From Anaerolineae bacterium CG2_30_57_67 (GTDB lineage Bacteria; Chloroflexota; Anaerolineae; Anaerolineales; Villigracilaceae), in NCBI GenBank assembly GCA_001872455.1, contig MNXJ01000078.1, forward strand, positions 1 to 34,997: 34,997 bases of DNA. The letters run 5' to 3'. The notes under the pieces were generated by a model. It worked only from the letters and a program-made list of their open reading frames with translations, searched no databases and was not told the origin of the DNA. Each line of letters begins with the position of its first letter. Position 1 is the stretch's first letter. Shown here one piece after another: positions 178-8,610 of this stretch. The position numbers and the translations under genes are program-made.

Positions 178-246
178 TGTTCGGATCACTCCTGTTTTTG
201 ATTTCTTGGCGTAGTTTACTCCACTTCTACCCTAGATGTGGGTAAT
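1..246 (-). mobile_element. Insertion sequence (IS4-like), terminal part
   Basis: The transposase fragment reads leftward. About 60 bp upstream of its start is ATTACCCACA (minus strand, 246-237). The same 10-mer forms the tip of an inverted-repeat element at 15675-15684, so it is read here as the element's terminal inverted repeat. The exact outer boundary, the other end and any target-site duplication are not visible. The stop codon of the neighbouring SPFH gene (234-232) lies inside this IS end. Confidence 0.55.
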
Positions 247-1179
247 AGACAGCTGAGATGTCAGCTCCAGCCACATTTGGTCTCGCTTTCGTTGTTCATC
301 AATCAAATTAACCTCGCGCAATACGTCCAGCATGGCCGCTTTGTTTTTCGCTCCGATGGTTTCAATTTCCGCATGATGATTTGCTATTATGGTATCTATT
401 TGGCTCCTATGTCTTGTGTTGAGCGTATCCAACTCTGCACGTTTATCGGCCGCCCATTTGTCTGTTACTGCTTTGTACTCAGCCTTTATGCGTTCAATCT
501 CTTGTGCGTATGATAAATCCAATTTGTCATTCTGAGTTTTTCGTTCATTAATAAGCGCATCTTGTCGTAAAGAAATAAAAGTTGGGTCGCCTTGAAAAAC
601 TTTTATTTCAGCGCCTGTCAACATAAACGCTTTTGAAATTTGATGCCGGTTGTTGTGACGGCCACGAAGAAATTGAAGAAGCCTGCCGCCATCCAAACTA
701 TCTTTCGCATCAGCAATTTCATTGTGGTTGCGTGTGCGGATATACTGCATGGTATCCGCTTCCAAAGTAGCAAAAAGTGTCTCGACCGGGTTTTCAATCT
801 CTAGCGCGGTTACGGGGTCTATAATTTGGTAACGGATAAGAATGACAAGCGCTATTTTTTCGCCATCTGCTGTCATTTCTGAAACGAGTGAAGTCTCACC
901 AATCCGGCCGTTTTTTTGCACATACTGCAGCTTATATTTTCCCGATGGGAAATCACTTAATCCACCAGTAATTCGGTGGTTCGTGCCATCTGGATGCACA
1001 ATGATGCCATATACATTCGGCGGTAGATTGATATAAGTGCAACCAAGTATACTGACAGTAAACTTTTTGCCATGTGCAAAAATCTTTCCTTCCAGAAAAT
1101 TGATTATTGGAATGCTTTGTCTGCGTCCCCAAAAACCAACCCACTGATGAATAAGATAACGCCAAAACGATTCATTCAT
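232..1179 (-). CDS. SPFH/Band-7 domain protein with coiled coil, 3' end altered by IS
   Basis: The 315-residue protein has a β-rich first half with the stretch EKIALVILIRYQIIDPVTAL, followed by an EADTMQYIRTRNHNEI segment. Both are typical of SPFH (stomatin/prohibitin/flotillin) domains. Residues about 215-300 are highly charged (ERIKAEYKAVTDKWAADKR and similar) and should form a coiled coil, as in oligomerising SPFH proteins. I see no clear N-terminal membrane segment. The start ATG overlaps the TGA of the radical SAM gene (ATGA), indicating translational coupling, and this is the last gene of the four-gene operon. The last codons (I-T-H-I-stop) come from the terminal inverted repeat of the adjacent IS, so the original C-terminus was probably lost or replaced. 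SPFH assignment is by pattern and moderately sure. Confidence 0.62.
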   Translation of the reverse strand: MNESFWRYLIHQWVGFWGRRQSIPIINFLEGKIFAHGKKFTVSILGCTYINLPPNVYGIIVHPDGTNHRITGGLSDFPSGKYKLQYVQKNGRIGETSLVSEMTADGEKIALVILIRYQIIDPVTALEIENPVETLFATLEADTMQYIRTRNHNEIADAKDSLDGGRLLQFLRGRHNNRHQISKAFMLTGAEIKVFQGDPTFISLRQDALINERKTQNDKLDLSYAQEIERIKAEYKAVTDKWAADKRAELDTLNTRHRSQIDTIIANHHAEIETIGAKNKAAMLDVLREVNLIDEQRKRDQMWLELTSQLSITHI

Positions 1180-2648
1180 TGCTGCTCCGCATATTTTGCA
1201 AGTAGACGAAAGCCTTCCAGCCGAAAAGATTCAGGATACAACGATTTGTACACAGCGCAATAAGGAGATTGAACGTCACTCCGTCCGTTGAGACGATAAG
1301 TCAGTAACGGACACCCACCAGTGCACCAATACATCCACTCACAGGTTTTGCAGTTTCCTTTTTTGTTTACTGGCAGGTTGATAGGGTTGGAATGGCGTCT
1401 GAAAGAATTTAGGATATTTTTATTTTCAGTTGTCACAGGATTTCCGCTCATTTCCATTTGACAACGAAAAAGTTGCCCTCGCGCATTAAAAACCAAATAG
1501 TCTTGCTCAACTGCGCAGGTACGCAAGTGTGGTACGGCCAGGTTTGCGCGATCAACTAAGCCGGCTAAGATACTCTCATTGGGTGGGTTTACTCTGATCA
1601 CTTCAAAGGCGGATAACATGCCATCAATCAGTATTTGCTGGTCACCATTTTCTGCATAATATAAGTTTTCCCGCGCAAAATTTAAGTTAAAGTGTAATTT
1701 ATTGGCACACAACCAGGCGACCAACTCAGGCAAGGAATGTGCATTTTGAGTACTGACTGTGACAGAGATGTGCGGGGAGAGCCCGGCTTGTTGTGCAATT
1801 ACAATTGCCAGTGAAACTTGTTCAAAAGAGCCGCGGCCATTCGCAAAATGGCGATGAACGTCATGAGCGGCTCCCAGCCCGTCCAACGAAATCATTAAGC
1901 GCAAGCCATGTTTTTTAATAGACGCTGCTATTTCGGGCGTCAATAGAGTTCCGTTACTAAGAATAACTTCTTCCAGTTCAAGGTGTAATTCGGCAGAGAG
2001 TTGTGCTGCCAGTTCGTGCCAGCCCAAAATTGTTTCGAAGCGCAACAAGGGTTCTCCACCCGCATACTTGATTTTCACCTTGGAATATCCGTTTCGAGAT
2101 GCTTCAGAAAAAAGAGTGTGAATGGTTTCATCTCCGGTGATTTTAGACATATCTTCGGGACGATGAGGAAGGTAGCAATAAATACAGCGTAAGTTGCAAC
2201 GATCGGTAGTGTGCAGCCAGGCAGTAAGGGTATGTGGTGACGCTTCAAGTGTTTGGTGCGGCAAAGTCAATAAGCCAGATTGAACTAGATTTTGAATAGT
2301 TTCTGCGGCACAGATCTCGCCACCGATTTTTGACAAATGTGCATAGAGTGAAAAGTGTTGGTGATTTTTTAGGCCAATCAAAAGGTCTAATGCGGGGTGA
2401 TTGACCACCGTTGGCTGGCAAGTTGGGCCAAAACACAAGGTGTATTCATCGTTTAATTTTATTGTGGAAAATGAGGCCGCCTCAAGTTCGGGAATTCGCG
2501 GCAAAACGGATTTATCAAACACAAAGGATGTGGCAGTTGAAAGGCCACACGCACAATCACAGTCGCAGTCGCATTGTCCACCTGGTACAAATTTATTGGA
2601 ATGCTCAAAAATAACCACAGGCAGAGTAGGTGGATAGGAATTTGACAT
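1176..2648 (-). CDS. Radical SAM/SPASM peptide-modifying enzyme with Cys-Asp-rich N-terminus
   Basis: The protein has 490 residues. The radical SAM motif CNLRCIYC (C151, C155, C158) binds the 4Fe-4S cluster that cleaves S-adenosylmethionine, and AGGEP (196-200) is the SAM-contacting GGEP motif. The C-terminal SPASM region has cysteines at about 378, 396, 433, 436, 442, 446 and 464, enough for auxiliary clusters. SPASM enzymes typically modify ribosomally made peptides or proteins (thioether or C-C crosslinks, epimerisation). The unusual feature is CDCDCDCAC at residues 26-34, ahead of the catalytic domain. The ATG at 2648 is chosen because AGGAG lies 7 nt upstream; a TTG 24 nt earlier has none. 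It lies 13 nt after the ATPase gene and overlaps the SPFH gene. No separate precursor peptide gene is visible in the operon, so the substrate is unknown. Confidence 0.85.
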   Translation of the reverse strand: MSNSYPPTLPVVIFEHSNKFVPGGQCDCDCDCACGLSTATSFVFDKSVLPRIPELEAASFSTIKLNDEYTLCFGPTCQPTVVNHPALDLLIGLKNHQHFSLYAHLSKIGGEICAAETIQNLVQSGLLTLPHQTLEASPHTLTAWLHTTDRCNLRCIYCYLPHRPEDMSKITGDETIHTLFSEASRNGYSKVKIKYAGGEPLLRFETILGWHELAAQLSAELHLELEEVILSNGTLLTPEIAASIKKHGLRLMISLDGLGAAHDVHRHFANGRGSFEQVSLAIVIAQQAGLSPHISVTVSTQNAHSLPELVAWLCANKLHFNLNFARENLYYAENGDQQILIDGMLSAFEVIRVNPPNESILAGLVDRANLAVPHLRTCAVEQDYLVFNARGQLFRCQMEMSGNPVTTENKNILNSFRRHSNPINLPVNKKGNCKTCEWMYWCTGGCPLLTYRLNGRSDVQSPYCAVYKSLYPESFRLEGFRLLAKYAEQQ

Positions 2649-2661
2649 GTTTATGCTCCTG

Positions 2662-5600
2662 TTATACGACAAAATTAAGCCTAATTTTGGTCTCTAATAA
2701 AGTGCATTTGCCAATCAAACTGCCCGACTGGCGTGTAGCCGGTTTTGAGTTCCAATATTCCTTAAGATATTTGCACCATTGCAAGGCTACTTCAGGATGG
2801 TTTTCCTGTTGAGCCAGATACAGGATATTTTTTTCAACACGGTCAAATTCTTCTTGAAAAGTGCTTTGCCCATAGCCGGCAAAACGCTTTTCCAAGAGAA
2901 AATAAGATTCAGCGTACAAGGGCAACGCATCTGGATAGCGCTTTTGCGCAAAGGCAGTATCGGCAAGCACGCGCAACATCCTTCCCTGATGATGAGGAAA
3001 ATTGTAACCTTGCTGGAGTATTTTTTTCAAATCTTTAGATTTTGTGTCAATCTGTATTGGCAGGGTGTCCAATTGCTGATTGGATACAATCCACTTTTGA
3101 TAGAAAATTTCTGCACATCCAATCAGGTTGTTCACCCGAGTATGCATATCTCCAATCGCGTGTGCGCGCTCATCACTTTGCTCGAATAATTTTAGGGCTG
3201 TATCCAAGTTTCCCTCATCCCAATCCACACAACCCAAGACATGGTAAGCCCAAGGAAGTTCTTTTGTCACTTTCAGGGCAATGCTGGCACTAATATCCTG
3301 ACGGGCATCATCAAATCGTCTCATTAATCGCAATGTAGCGCCGCGGTGGCTGTACAAATATGCCAACCAGGGTTTGATATGCTCGGGCTCGAAAATTTCA
3401 AAGGCTTTGTTGTATGCTTCAAGTGATTTTGGATAATCGCCCATGTTGCGATAGACATCCCCTATCGTTGTGTAGCTTTTTCCCTGCCCCTGAATATCCT
3501 GCAATCTCTGGCGCATTGATAACGCCTCTGCGCAATACTGGATGGCTTTATCATAAAGCCCATCAAACGAGTAAACATAACCGGCATTATTTAATACCGT
3601 GGCCACTTTTAACGGCTCTGATGTGGCGATAAGGGCTTTATCATAGTAGTCAGCGGCGGTTGTGTGTTTTCCCATCTGACGATACACCCAGCCGAGTGTA
3701 TTCAAAACTGTTCCTCGGTGACTTTCCAGTTCTTCAAGATGGTTTTCACATAAAGCGTAGGCCTTTCGCAAAGATTCGATGGCCGTTGTTAGTTGTTGAA
3801 TATGAATATAATAATTTGCTTCATTGGTAAAAAGCCCAAGAAGCTGTTCCCATGTTAGACTGGGATATTGTAGCAATTCACCCAATATTTTTCTAGCCTG
3901 ATCATACTGTCCTTGGTCAAGCCAGTATCGCACCCAGCGAGTATTAACATCGTATTTTTCATCAAAAGAGAATTCTGCCAGGTAGGGGGTCAACGCATCA
4001 AGTAGCATTTTGCGCGATGATAGGCGAGCAAAACGGGTGGCTTGCTCGAACATTTCTTTAAACTTTTCAACACCCTGTGAAGTTGTAATATAACAAAGAT
4101 GATAAAGGTAGTTTTCGCGTAAAGAAAAGAGTTTTTGGTAAAGTTTTTCGCGCTCAATGAATTTTTCGGCGTTATCTGTTTGAATTTTGCTAAGGAGAGA
4201 TTCAATCATCTGAATTTGTTGTTTGTAAAAGTCAATGGCTAATTGACTGTCGCGGCGGCGGCGCTCTTTGTCGGGGTCAATTTCATTCCATAAGTTGTCA
4301 CAAATCATTTCCTGCATGACATCGTGCAGCTTAATTCGTCCGTCTGGCAAACGTTTGATAAATGTGTAAGATTGGGCATCGGCAAAAAGTTTTTCGGCCT
4401 CAGAGTGGTTAATCGCGCGTAATTTTTCAATCAGAGTAACATCCAGTGGAAAAATATGTGCCATCACCAGAAATAACCAATCCAGTTGGCGCTGTCCCTG
4501 CCCAATATACTGGACCAGATGACGCTGAAATTCTTTTATTTTCAGTTGTTTCTCTGGGCCGGATAGATCTTTTTCAAGTTGAGTGGTATCTTTTTCTCTA
4601 ATCCACTCCAACGGGATTTCGCGCGCCAGCCAATCAACAGCCAAATCAATCAGAATGGGGCGTCCTTCTGCCAGTAAAAGCAGGTTATGTGCCAGTGTTG
4701 GGTCAATGGTGAAACCAAGTTTGGCCTGCTTTTTTTGTAGATATTCTTTCCCAAATTTTTCTTTAAATGACGAGATTGGTATTTCTTGCACGTCTGCCTG
4801 CCAATTTTGTTCCGCATAAAGTTTGGCATAAATTTTTTTTGCCTCGCGTCCCGTCACAATGCAGACGAAATTATTAAGTGCAGAAAATACTTTAAATACC
4901 CTCTCTAATATATTAATCCGATTATCATTATCTACGGTGTCGAAGAAGAGCAGAACGCGTTGGGTCTGGGTAATCTCGTTGAAACAATCCGCAAATTTTC
5001 TATAGCTGGCTTGCAGGTCATCGTCTGCAAGTAGATTGAAATAAGGCGTGAAAACCTGCTCCCCCATGGTTACCGCAATTTGGTAAAGAATATTTTCCGA
5101 ATCGCAAATGGCATCATCGTCAAAGTCGAGAATCGACATTTGCGGAAAAAGGCGTCTTTCTTTGGAAAAAGCATTTTGTCTGGCATGTAATCGGGGCGTC
5201 CAGGGAATTTCAATTTTCAGCCAATCGGGAGGCAGTTTGCCTTCAGTGTCAAGCAAAGTTTTTAATTTTTCTTTGTCGATTTTTTCTGCTTTGAAGGAAT
5301 AACTGCGTTCCAGGGGTTCATTCATCGCCACCAAAGTCGCCAAGTTAATAATATACCTTCCCACCTCGATCGGGCTGGCATCTACTGTTGCGCGCCACGG
5401 GCTGTCTGGTTCCAACATGATTTTGGCATGTTCAGGATTTAACCCGTAACTATAAACGGCACAATCACTCTTCCCCGTCTCTTGAAGAGCTTGAATCGCC
5501 GGTTCGACGTATTCATCCCAAGCCACCCAAATAGATTTTATGGATGGATGACTTTGTAACAGTATGTGCGTTTCTTGATAAATCGTTTGCGAAAAAGGTT

Positions 5601-6297
5601 GAGAATTCGGTTTGACCTCGTATCCGATGTGAACATCAGGGTAAGGGCGTAATGAATCTTCCATAATGTGGTGACGATTCATCTGAAGAGCATCTTGCGG
5701 ATCGTAAATTGCCAGGATATCGCCCTTATATCCAATATCATGGGCCATTTGATGGACTAATTGAACGCCGCAATCCAAAAAATCTTGATTGATACGGGTT
5801 GTGATACAGTCTTCGGCTAAATAGTTATCAAACCCAATTACTTTTATACCCGCATCAAAAGCGCGTCGTAGAGCAGGCAGTAACTCATCATGCGTACCCA
5901 GTCGCAAAAGAATAGCCTGTGGTTTCAAGGCAATCGCATCATCCAACTGTTTTGACATTTTTGTAATGTCAAAATCTGCGTCAAATTCAGTCAAGGTAAT
6001 TCCAAGTTCGTCCGCCATTCGGCGTGCGCCAAATAAAAGATAGCGTGACCAATCAGTATTGGCAAACTCTTGTACCAGAGCAACGGTGATGTGCTCTTGA
6101 GTGGTTGTTTCAGAAAATTGGGGTGGAGCAGCACTATAGCGAACGCAAATTTCATTCAGTAATCGAGTTTTTCCAATTCCCCCTTCACCGTTGATACAAA
6201 TGATTTTTTTATTTCCCCACTGGCAAACGGCGGAGTTAATTTCGGCTAACTCATCTTCACGGTCAATGAAATCAATCTGACGAGATTGCTCTTCCAT
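2662..6297 (-). CDS. STAND ATPase/TPR protein with inserted periplasmic-binding-protein-like sensor domain
   Basis: The protein has 1211 residues. An FIDREDE motif is followed by Walker A GEGGIGKT (about 37-44). The chain then departs into a full type-I periplasmic-binding-protein fold (about 69-355; RbsB/LacI-like). This begins HITVALVQEF, has AILLRLGTHDELLPALRRA and SHPSIKSIWVAWDE, and ends with ATVDASPIEVGRYIINL. ATPase sequence then resumes: PQMSILDFDDD, Walker B VLLFFDTVDN (about 448-457), IVTGRE sensor region, a GLPL-like EGRPILIDLA and a winged-helix region (about 600-690). TPR-like helical repeats fill about 790-1140. There is no signal peptide, so ligand sensing would be cytoplasmic. 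The start is the ATG at 6297, with AGGAG 7 nt upstream; an in-frame ATG at 6303 abuts that site. A ligand-gated oligomerising switch is inferred from family knowledge. The ligand is unknown; a small molecule such as a sugar is the usual cargo of this fold. Confidence 0.83.
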   Translation of the reverse strand: MEEQSRQIDFIDREDELAEINSAVCQWGNKKIICINGEGGIGKTRLLNEICVRYSAAPPQFSETTTQEHITVALVQEFANTDWSRYLLFGARRMADELGITLTEFDADFDITKMSKQLDDAIALKPQAILLRLGTHDELLPALRRAFDAGIKVIGFDNYLAEDCITTRINQDFLDCGVQLVHQMAHDIGYKGDILAIYDPQDALQMNRHHIMEDSLRPYPDVHIGYEVKPNSQPFSQTIYQETHILLQSHPSIKSIWVAWDEYVEPAIQALQETGKSDCAVYSYGLNPEHAKIMLEPDSPWRATVDASPIEVGRYIINLATLVAMNEPLERSYSFKAEKIDKEKLKTLLDTEGKLPPDWLKIEIPWTPRLHARQNAFSKERRLFPQMSILDFDDDAICDSENILYQIAVTMGEQVFTPYFNLLADDDLQASYRKFADCFNEITQTQRVLLFFDTVDNDNRINILERVFKVFSALNNFVCIVTGREAKKIYAKLYAEQNWQADVQEIPISSFKEKFGKEYLQKKQAKLGFTIDPTLAHNLLLLAEGRPILIDLAVDWLAREIPLEWIREKDTTQLEKDLSGPEKQLKIKEFQRHLVQYIGQGQRQLDWLFLVMAHIFPLDVTLIEKLRAINHSEAEKLFADAQSYTFIKRLPDGRIKLHDVMQEMICDNLWNEIDPDKERRRRDSQLAIDFYKQQIQMIESLLSKIQTDNAEKFIEREKLYQKLFSLRENYLYHLCYITTSQGVEKFKEMFEQATRFARLSSRKMLLDALTPYLAEFSFDEKYDVNTRWVRYWLDQGQYDQARKILGELLQYPSLTWEQLLGLFTNEANYYIHIQQLTTAIESLRKAYALCENHLEELESHRGTVLNTLGWVYRQMGKHTTAADYYDKALIATSEPLKVATVLNNAGYVYSFDGLYDKAIQYCAEALSMRQRLQDIQGQGKSYTTIGDVYRNMGDYPKSLEAYNKAFEIFEPEHIKPWLAYLYSHRGATLRLMRRFDDARQDISASIALKVTKELPWAYHVLGCVDWDEGNLDTALKLFEQSDERAHAIGDMHTRVNNLIGCAEIFYQKWIVSNQQLDTLPIQIDTKSKDLKKILQQGYNFPHHQGRMLRVLADTAFAQKRYPDALPLYAESYFLLEKRFAGYGQSTFQEEFDRVEKNILYLAQQENHPEVALQWCKYLKEYWNSKPATRQSGSLIGKCTLLETKIRLNFVV

Positions 6298-6315
6298 AAC
6301 CATTCTCCTGAAAAT

Positions 6316-8610
6316 TTATTGCATAGAAAGGTAATCTTGTTTCCAAATTTGAACGGTATTCACAAATTCTTCAAATGGGCCATTGCTGTAGTCACCATCG
6401 CTCAAACAAAAATTAAGCAGGAAGCGGAATTCACCGTCTTGTTTTTCTTCTTTTTGCTTTTCTGAAACAAGTATCATGTGCAGGTCAGCAACAATTTCTT
6501 TGCGTTGCTCGTTATTTTTTTCATCCAATAAGTTTTTATATTTTTCGAGAATTCCGCCGGGCGCAAAAAAGGATTTCCGACCCTCTTTTACGCCCGATAA
6601 GAGCATCAACGCTAACTCTAATTCTAATGCGGCCAATAACATTAAGTCGAGATGGCTATCAAATTTTTGAATATACTGGCGGTATAAATCAAGCGCTACC
6701 CGGCAGCGTTGTTTGTATCTGGCAGGGTTCGAAGCGCGAAAATCGGCAACCAATACTCGTCGAGAAATATGGTCAGATAAGCAATTATCTTTGAGATTAT
6801 AGTAACGGGTACTGGGGAGCAACTCTTCCAGTTTGAACTTATCTAGTGCTAAGGCCGGCTTGATATAGCCTGAATTCATTAACATTCCAAGCATGTTCCG
6901 ATTTAGAAGTGGAAAAATACTTAATTTTTCTACCAATGGAGCAATATCCTTAAAATCCTGTTGCATGGACTTTCTAACTTCATCTGCGATGCTATGAATA
7001 AGACCTTTTAGTTCATCTTGGCGCAGAGCAAAATGAGATGATATATCGCCGGGTGCATCCCCAATTTTTTTAATTCCTTCTGCCATGCAATAAGGATGAC
7101 CTGCACTGGCATACATCAGGTTTGCCGCGTAAAGAGCGGGAAATTTTTGTTTGGGCAAGGACGATTTAACCGCTTCTTCAACGTATTTAATTTCAAACGG
7201 GCTCATCATTCTGATAACGATGGGGTCCAGTCGTTTGGCCCAGTCCACTCCAGAATATCTGCCCGCTACGCGGAGGCGTAGTTGTTTTCCTCCTCGGCGC
7301 AGTTCTGTTGCCAGACGATGCAAAAAATCCTGAAAAAATGGTTTGACAATTTCAAGCGAAATTTTTTCGGCATTATCTAATGTAAATAATACCCCAATGC
7401 CTTTGATTTCTTTCAGTAAGTCTTCTATACGATTAGCGACCCGGATGACATCAGACTGAATATCATCCGAACTATCGAGGGTAAAATCAATGTCCATTTT
7501 GTTATAAATTTGAGTGAGTAAATCAATCGTTGATTGCGGTTTATCGGAAGACTCCAAAGAAATGCAAAGCCACTTGGCTCGAAAATGCTCTTTACGGATT
7601 TCGTCCAGCAATTTTGTTTTACCGTACCCCATTGGACCTTCAAAAAAGATATAGGGCGCTGCCAGACTTTCGCAGGCTGCTTTTTTTTCATCTTCACGAT
7701 TCAGAAAACACACACTATTTGAGACATGAATATATTGATCGATTGGTATAAGCGGATGGTTTACGCTTATGTAATCAATAAATTCCTGGGTAGTCCCAGT
7801 TTCTCGTAATTTCTCCAGTAAATCGCTTTCGCACTTTGGCTTCAGATGACTCGATAAAGTAGATCTAAAAAAATCTTGGTAGAGATTCTGAAAAGCGCCT
7901 GATGTGAACCAGTCACCTCCAATTTTGAGAATTCCCGCTTTTTTCAATTGTTGCCACAAATCTTGTTCCTTGAGAACTTTTTCCAAAGGTTGCCAATAGA
8001 CGGCAATACTTTCCAAAGAAATAGCCAGCGGAATATTCTCTTGTTCATCTTCACGGGAATACTCAAAAAACATTCCATTAATTTCGTTCAATTCCACATC
8101 GTATATAGGCGCGCCGCTCATTCCTGAACGCATTTGCTGGTTTTGATCTGATTCTGAATTTAGCTGCCATTGTTTGACGCCAAACTGTTGCTGTGGGCCT
8201 AGGATTTCTCCTTTTGCGTAGGCTCCATTTGCATCCAGATACTTTGCGCGAAACCCGTAAGAGAGAAAAGGGTGGGGAAATTGAGCGTTTGCGCCAAGTC
8301 CCAAAGGAATTAGTCTTACCCCTTCTGGCAAGGTGTCATCTGTTAAGCGCAAAATTGCAAAATCAAGAATTTTGGGTTGTGGTGAAGCGAAAATCATTGA
8401 GCATTCATATTCCCTGGCTTGGAATTTGACGGTTATATGTTGCTCTACCGGATTTTCTGTAAACGTCGGGTTGATCACGTGAAAACACGTCAAAATATCC
8501 CCACTTTTACTGACAAAAAAGCCGGTCCCAGCAATCTGCCCGTTTCGCCAAATGCTAACAACGCAGTCGGGAAGATTGGAACATGCTTTTTCTTCTTTCT
8601 TATCAGACAT
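6316..8610 (-). CDS. Trypsin-like serine protease fused to STAND-type ATPase
   Basis: The protein has 764 residues. Residues 17-205 form a trypsin-like (S1) fold with the complete triad: His44 in LTCFHVINP, Asp83 in LDFAILRL and Ser165 in SGMSGAPIYD. A linker (about 206-300) leads to FLNREDEKK, Walker A GPMGYGKT (325-332) and Walker B VLFTLDN (407-413), then a helical C-terminal region with no clear TPRs. There is no signal peptide, so it is expected in the cytoplasm. It is the first gene of the leftward operon, starting at an ATG preceded by GGGAGGAAT and ending 18 nt before the next ATPase gene. Both ATPases carry the same REDE box just before Walker A. Trypsin-STAND fusions are known from bacterial conflict and regulated-proteolysis loci; the target here is unknown. 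Confidence 0.85.
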   Translation of the reverse strand: MSDKKEEKACSNLPDCVVSIWRNGQIAGTGFFVSKSGDILTCFHVINPTFTENPVEQHITVKFQAREYECSMIFASPQPKILDFAILRLTDDTLPEGVRLIPLGLGANAQFPHPFLSYGFRAKYLDANGAYAKGEILGPQQQFGVKQWQLNSESDQNQQMRSGMSGAPIYDVELNEINGMFFEYSREDEQENIPLAISLESIAVYWQPLEKVLKEQDLWQQLKKAGILKIGGDWFTSGAFQNLYQDFFRSTLSSHLKPKCESDLLEKLRETGTTQEFIDYISVNHPLIPIDQYIHVSNSVCFLNREDEKKAACESLAAPYIFFEGPMGYGKTKLLDEIRKEHFRAKWLCISLESSDKPQSTIDLLTQIYNKMDIDFTLDSSDDIQSDVIRVANRIEDLLKEIKGIGVLFTLDNAEKISLEIVKPFFQDFLHRLATELRRGGKQLRLRVAGRYSGVDWAKRLDPIVIRMMSPFEIKYVEEAVKSSLPKQKFPALYAANLMYASAGHPYCMAEGIKKIGDAPGDISSHFALRQDELKGLIHSIADEVRKSMQQDFKDIAPLVEKLSIFPLLNRNMLGMLMNSGYIKPALALDKFKLEELLPSTRYYNLKDNCLSDHISRRVLVADFRASNPARYKQRCRVALDLYRQYIQKFDSHLDLMLLAALELELALMLLSGVKEGRKSFFAPGGILEKYKNLLDEKNNEQRKEIVADLHMILVSEKQKEEKQDGEFRFLLNFCLSDGDYSNGPFEEFVNTVQIWKQDYLSMQ

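Follow-up and report, generated by a model that had tools for sequence, protein, structure and literature searches.

In most descriptions, switch proteins of the STAND class (signal transduction ATPases with numerous domains), such as plant NLRs, Apaf-1, and bacterial Avs, sense through their C-terminal parts. Here, we analyze a STAND protein, P0001, encoded on contig MNXJ01000078.1 of Anaerolineae bacterium CG2_30_57_67, in a stretch of 34,997 nucleotides that we refer to in its entirety as the window; P0001 carries a soluble periplasmic-binding-protein (PBP) domain inside its nucleotide-binding domain. MalT is one STAND protein with tetratricopeptide-repeat (TPR) sensors to which P0001 can be compared. 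Another is PH0952 (6mfv), in which an NB-ARC/NACHT-related P-loop NTPase is likewise followed by TPRs. Unlike both of these, P0001 has a globular receptor placed between its Walker motifs A and B, and the recognized effector is encoded by a separate gene.

The nearest described logic is that of the actinobacterial FxSxx systems (Kaur et al. 2020, PMC7159879), which combine a radical S-adenosylmethionine (SAM)-SPASM enzyme, an AP-ATPase with C-terminal TPRs, and TIR. Their core comprises a metallopeptidase and a small precursor, neither of which was noticed in the locus studied here, where no search was aimed at them; the present cassette differs further in its second ATPase gene and, in four cases, in the PBP insert. 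The NCBIfam FxSxx_TPR model scored 46.7 bits on P0001, in the TPR part, against a cutoff of 300. A passage on PBPs in PMC7159879 concerns an extracellular domain that follows transmembrane helices, in another system. Segments inserted in a P-loop NTPase domain also occur in the KAP NTPases (Aravind et al. 2004), where they are transmembrane by the title of that paper, whereas the insert in P0001 is predicted to be a soluble ligand-binding domain. With transport proteins of the 5-methylthioribose-type Peripla_BP_4 group (4ry8; loci L187, L206, L207, and L208), the insert has its fold, clade, and several cleft positions in common; in contrast to them, it lacks, as judged by reading, both a signal peptide and a lipoprotein part, and it is nested in an ATPase. 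In text searches of an open-access library, a scope outside which lie most subscription papers and all bioRxiv preprints, we found no paper describing a STAND ATPase with a nested PBP, or the gene cassette in which P0001 resides. Further cases of nested PBPs may exist.

The insert and its host ATPase

Its sequence and a structural model identify P0001 as a probable STAND-type switch with a soluble type-I PBP domain inside the nucleotide-binding domain (Table 1). An initial annotation, made from the DNA letters, had proposed a PBP-like sensor at positions 5225-6190 (residues ~39-360), with domain limits of 69-355, after the Walker A helix and before ATPase sequence resumes at PQMSILDFDDD. This nesting was borne out by Pfam, by the model, and by four genomes sharing one insertion site, and the limits proved right to within a few residues (70-345). 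Specifically, Peripla_BP_4 matched residues 75-327 (E 1.4e-33; 117 bits vs. a cutoff of 35.1), the ATPase sequence restarted at PQMSILDFDDD (387-397), and the Walker B motif VLLFFDT (450-456) fell on a strand running from 448 to 455 or 456 in sequence and model, in agreement with its earlier placement near 448. The TPRs, likewise anticipated at the C-terminus, extended over residues ~790-1050 (TPR_12, E 2e-29, three stretches). The N-terminus is the ATPase itself, with no signal peptide apparent on inspection (a judgement by eye, not by a prediction program), and the receptor should therefore be cytoplasmic, as had been supposed.

Matches of ATPase_2, AAA_16, and NB-ARC to P0001 covered the P-loop start only (residues 12-80) and were under the curated Pfam cutoffs (NB-ARC, E 3.3e-4). 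The STAND identity emerged from 18 non-nested relatives, which matched AAA_16 (17/18), NB-ARC (11/18), and NACHT (9/18) at E up to 0.01, and from a profile of the non-nested relatives, for which the best solved match was the TPR STAND sensor PH0952 (6mfv, E 5e-8), followed by LRRK2 (9e-5). Pfam and NCBIfam detected no effector domain inside P0001, the trypsin-like domain being encoded by the adjacent partner gene. An effector domain in the same chain is not universal among STAND proteins.

Structure prediction, which the initial annotation had named as a check of the nesting, was performed with AlphaFold2. A run from a single sequence (768 residues), with a mean predicted local distance difference test score (pLDDT) of 39.0, was superseded by a model built from an alignment of 43 rows, namely 4 nested proteins, 20 relatives without the insert, and 19 transport-protein PBP domains (two of them from one open reading frame, ORF); the latter model had a mean pLDDT of 91.7 and a predicted template modelling score (pTM) of 0.69. 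Strands were modelled at 33-38, 384-393, 448-455, 479-485, and 504-509, and the P-loop helix at 45-58, with the PBP placed between that helix and strand 384-393. Both ATPase halves were predicted at high confidence around a type-I PBP fold at 70-345. Foldseek and VIA-align matched the insert to solved sugar-binding proteins, the best being 4ry8 (VIA Z 35.0, root-mean-square deviation 2.9, 309 aligned), the record of which is titled 5-methylthioribose transporter solute binding protein. PBP matches filled the VIA list, and the ATPase part was hardly probed by fold. At 606-690, in the stretch beyond the NTPase domain where a STAND protein may have a winged helix, the model has helices and two short strands.

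Insertion at the same site was found in at least four genomes, those of the window, G097, G670, and G811, belonging to two families, with Peripla_BP_4 recognized in the three other nested proteins at E 1.1e-27, 1.8e-30, and 7.6e-25. Across 66 homologues, the spacing between the Walker A Lys and the Walker B Asp was 83-129 residues in the 60 without an insert and 410-450 in the 4 nested proteins, while 2 had no aligned P-loop (P-loop Lys in 64/66, Walker B Asp in 66/66). The nested protein of G097 came from a search of 150 genomes in the window's family (30% identity over query residues 7-767), which also returned relatives whose matches skip the PBP; a stop codon flagged at the G097 gene lies, by coordinates, just before its ATG. 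When two nested and five non-nested proteins were aligned, the PBP formed a single gap after the P-loop helix, and four of the five non-nested proteins resumed at a DFDD-type strand, the fifth (L043) being without a DFDD motif.

Table 1. Features of the P0001 locus, in window coordinates.
Feature	Position	Strand	Remarks
STAND-TPR gene with nested PBP (P0001)	2662..6303	minus	1213 aa, ATG start, no internal stop
Walker A GEGGIGKT, residues 39-46	6166..6189	minus	
Nested PBP domain, residues 70-345	5269..6096	minus	Pfam, model, and fold matches
Return linker, residues 346-383	5155..5268	minus	Lower model confidence
Next ATPase core strand RLFPQMSILD, residues 384-393, ATPase sequence restarting	5125..5154	minus	
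Remaining ATPase and subsequent mainly helical part, residues 384-690	4234..5154	minus	
Walker B strand QRVLLFFDT, residues 448-456	4936..4962	minus	
TPR region, residues ~788-1060	3124..3942	minus	Pfam
Partner gene, N-terminal trypsin-like protease and ATPase (764 aa)	6316..8610	minus	12 bases upstream of STAND gene
Trypsin_2 domain of partner, residues 28-176	8083..8529	minus	Pfam
Radical SAM enzyme	1176..2672	minus	Follows STAND gene
Cys/Asp motif CDCDCDCAC, radical SAM N-terminus	2547..2573	minus	

Distribution and history of the insert

Searches covered genomes of the window's phylum, Chloroflexota, and, beyond it, consisted of viral, phage, plasmid, and short-pattern scans. With the radical SAM gene as a marker (E up to 1e-70), loci were recovered from 43 of 400 phylum-sampled and 49 of 400 order-sampled genomes, the two samples overlapping; the 84 loci yielded 78 radical SAM ORFs, and 67 of these had a large gene next to them (same strand, at least 600 aa, up to 1500 bases upstream). 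The nested copies entered the data set by different routes: the analysis began from the window, G097 was detected through its nesting, the G670 gene came from the marker sampling, and that of G811 came from a targeted search of 41 genomes of G670's family and was then added by hand. Because only 1 of the 59 large genes obtained from the marker alone (loci L115-L185) was nested, that of G670, the insert is rare. Its occurrence was also patchy: in G097's genus, 1 genome among 11 had a nested gene (E up to 1e-20), and in that of the window, 1 among 5 (E up to 1e-10). No P0001 relatives were found in the viral-contig or phage scans. The plasmid scan with P0001 returned 343 records, none covering 80% of the query and the listed ones matching the PBP part, and the radical SAM enzyme had no plasmid match at E 1e-30. 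A scan of genome contigs with two short patterns returned one record and missed G670 and G811, and is hence uninformative on absence.

In phylogenetic reconstructions, the four inserts grouped together without full support (93/71 and 92% of 200 bootstrap trees in a 32-row tree; 85/87 in a 16-row tree). The PBP tree is uncertain, with long branches that include the window and G097 inserts, and a sister relationship of these two was not rejected (approximately unbiased test, p-AU 0.066, 16-row tree). Host backbones, analyzed with the insert removed (13 rows), placed the window and G097 with L038 and L132 (88/88), and G670 and G811 with L043 (100/99) and L039 (100/100). A single insertion followed by vertical descent without loss was rejected by the backbone tree (p-AU 9e-69), under a four-together constraint that was chosen after seeing an earlier tree, which warns of long branches. 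Since the backbones of the four do not form one clade, the insert has undergone several losses, transfer from one backbone to another, or more than one capture, each at one site and out of one PBP family.

The binding pocket and its candidate ligands

The inserts belonged to a supported clade that contained nine transport proteins (99/96 in the 32-row tree; 98/97 in the 16-row tree). Among the four of these nine for which neighbourhoods were examined, mtnK (methylthioribose kinase) over the NCBIfam cutoff adjoined in all four, and mtnA (methylthioribose-1-phosphate isomerase) adjoined mtnK in all three neighbourhoods checked. A fifth clade protein, from L186, lies on a 4.3-kb contig without another ORF of 200 aa. 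We also observed that two methylthioribose-type binding proteins, L186:1265-3565 and L206:8635-10803, have two tandem PBP copies per ORF, which score identically to the last digit; one of the genomes is a single contig.

We consider it likely that the insert binds a small molecule. The leading candidate for this ligand, a 5-substituted ribose, for example 5-methylthioribose or 5-deoxyribose, is tentative, and the ligand may instead be a molecule that fits a pocket derived from a 5-substituted-ribose pocket. In the nested genomes themselves, mtnK over the cutoff was found in 0/4, with weak partial matches in two; mtnA was over the cutoff in three, with partial matches only in the window's genome, and methylthioadenosine (MTA) phosphorylase was over the cutoff in all four. 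Given MTA phosphorylase and no over-cutoff mtnK, free methylthioribose may not be a regular intermediate in these genomes (no search was made for MTA nucleosidase). The by-product of radical SAM enzymes gives rise to 5-deoxyribose, according to PMC6079011, and the SAM-cleaving enzyme of phage T3 was annotated as MTA-forming, according to PMC7877911.

The cassette and readings of its function

Gene order and domain content show a three-gene cassette, consisting of a partner ATPase, the STAND-TPR protein, and a radical SAM enzyme, that is recurrent in the phylum and for which the radical SAM enzyme is the marker gene. In the window, a TTG start of the latter at 2672 overlaps the STAND gene by 11 bases, while an ATG at 2648 lies 13 bases after it. 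The best NCBIfam match of this enzyme was the PapB ranthipeptide maturase, below the cutoff. All 78 radical SAM ORFs contained CxxxCxxC, and within their first 110 residues CxC was present in 63 and DCAC in 56, in some ORFs with the motif occurring twice, ~20 residues apart. This N-terminal Cys/Asp motif may provide a site for an additional cluster, or it may be a substrate that is fused to the enzyme acting on it.

A further gene of at least 250 aa was located within 400 bases upstream of 61 of 68 STAND-TPR genes (G811 included). These partners matched TIR_2 (5), CHAT (5), trypsin (1), and EAD7 (1) by Pfam at E up to 1e-4, as well as AAA_16 (27/61) and Trans_reg_C (1/61). For the four nested genes, the partner carried trypsin in the window and CHAT in G811, and no recognized effector in G097 and G670. 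The window's trypsin keeps its His, Asp, and Ser motifs (TCFHV, LDFAIL, and GMSGAP). PADLOC matched LmuA, RT-Protease_XI, and PDC-M35A to the trypsin gene and pVip to the radical SAM gene.

Several other genes were observed around the cassettes. A separate CHAT gene lies near those of G097 and G811 (L037:18354-19499 and L204:12482-13999), the two products having N-termini alike by eye and the two cassettes being in genomes of different families. Directly upstream of the G097 cassette is a 1262-aa fusion of glycosyl hydrolase family 25 and a KAP NTPase (L037:4723-8511), and upstream of the G670 cassette is an FGE-sulfatase domain protein (L155:2390-3556). PMC7159879 also names the FGE-sulfatase domain in conflict systems. 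A 315-aa ORF at window positions 232-1179 overlaps the radical SAM gene by 4 bases and had no Pfam match at 0.1; it was dropped as a cassette member, having no match in the other fetched loci. We take this ORF to be SPFH/Band-7-like in appearance.

We propose, with a probability of roughly 55%, that P0001 is a cytoplasmic sensor for a 5-substituted ribose or a related molecule, which would gate STAND assembly and a protease partner. A small molecule would close the two PBP lobes, and, with the insert attached at each end next to the ATP site, this closure would alter nucleotide binding or assembly and release autoinhibition. The activated STAND-TPR protein would then engage or recruit the ATPase of the upstream partner, bringing the partner's protease into action (trypsin-like in the window, CHAT in G811), and the TPRs may serve as a second sensing or inhibitory surface. 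That the cassette is a conflict system, acting in defence or cell death, seems reasonably probable from its domains, the odds being lowered because most partner genes have no recognized effector. A narrower version, in which an NLR-like switch guards SAM metabolism by detecting free 5-methylthioribose or 5-deoxyribose through its in-ATPase receptor and unleashing the protease, we regard as improbable; levels of these sugars could rise through SAM-cleaving enzymes of phages or through uncontrolled turnover by radical SAM enzymes.

Several results weigh against the proposed sensor. In the window's insert, Gly287 occupies one sugar-binding Asp position, at which the other three nested proteins and all 19 transport-protein rows have Asp; in the G097 insert, Ala occupies a second, which is Asp in the other three (Asp159 in the window) and, again, in 19/19 rows. 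We presume these positions to be those of RbsB Asp215 and Asp89, respectively. With Asp replaced by Gly or Ala, the pockets of the window and G097 may bind something else or nothing. Identity within this same pair was 25% in the insert, below that of the remaining ATPase (32%) and of the TPRs (34%), and both inserts are on long branches. Such features would suit an insert that no longer binds a small molecule, the captured PBP fold now serving as a structural module or binding proteins, for instance through a surface that a phage or partner protein recognizes. We find this unlikely, however, in that G670 and G811 retain both Asp, Trp85, Tyr265, and Ser-Pro-Trp 301-303 are common to all four nested copies, and conservation of the insert equals or exceeds that of the rest of the ATPase in the other five nested pairs (30/29, 33/27, 30/26, 27/23, and 58/52% identity). 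Between the window and G670, identity was 30% in the insert and 22% in the TPRs. Also on the adverse side, the pTM leaves the orientation of the PBP to the ATPase uncertain, PADLOC on P0001 (E up to 0.01) returned only single-family matches (TPR, C3a198, and Csx21), and TIR, CHAT, trypsin, and EAD7 matches were all lacking in at least 49 of the 61 partners, those of G097 and G670 among them.

The shortage of recognized effectors would fit a metabolic or developmental regulator. In such a system, the PBP would report on a nutrient or on a side product of SAM chemistry, and the STAND-TPR protein, much like MalT, would control a peptide pathway or the radical SAM enzyme. The radical SAM gene, close in the window and always adjoining (by design of the marker search), a ligand class that points toward SAM by-products, and the single partner with the DNA-binding Trans_reg_C favor such a role. 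Yet the 12 TIR, CHAT, trypsin, and EAD7 matches among the 61 partners are typical of conflict systems, no DNA-binding domain was reported in P0001 by Pfam and NCBIfam, and the occurrence of nested genes within genera was patchy, so that we hold a regulator to be a rather doubtful alternative. The concern that the ORF could be a fusion of assembled fragments, raised in the initial annotation and understandable for a window from a draft genome of 87 contigs, is negligible: four genomes from two families share this architecture and its insertion site, cassette genes flank the ORF on both sides, its frame is open throughout, and for the family an assembly chimera was rejected.

If the proposed sensor is correct, a PBP with well-understood ligand-induced closure would link the binding of a small molecule to the nucleotide state inside a single domain. 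The family would offer a definite ligand class together with a natural comparison, that of relatives with and without the insert, and may provide a design rule for ligand-gated STAND switches.

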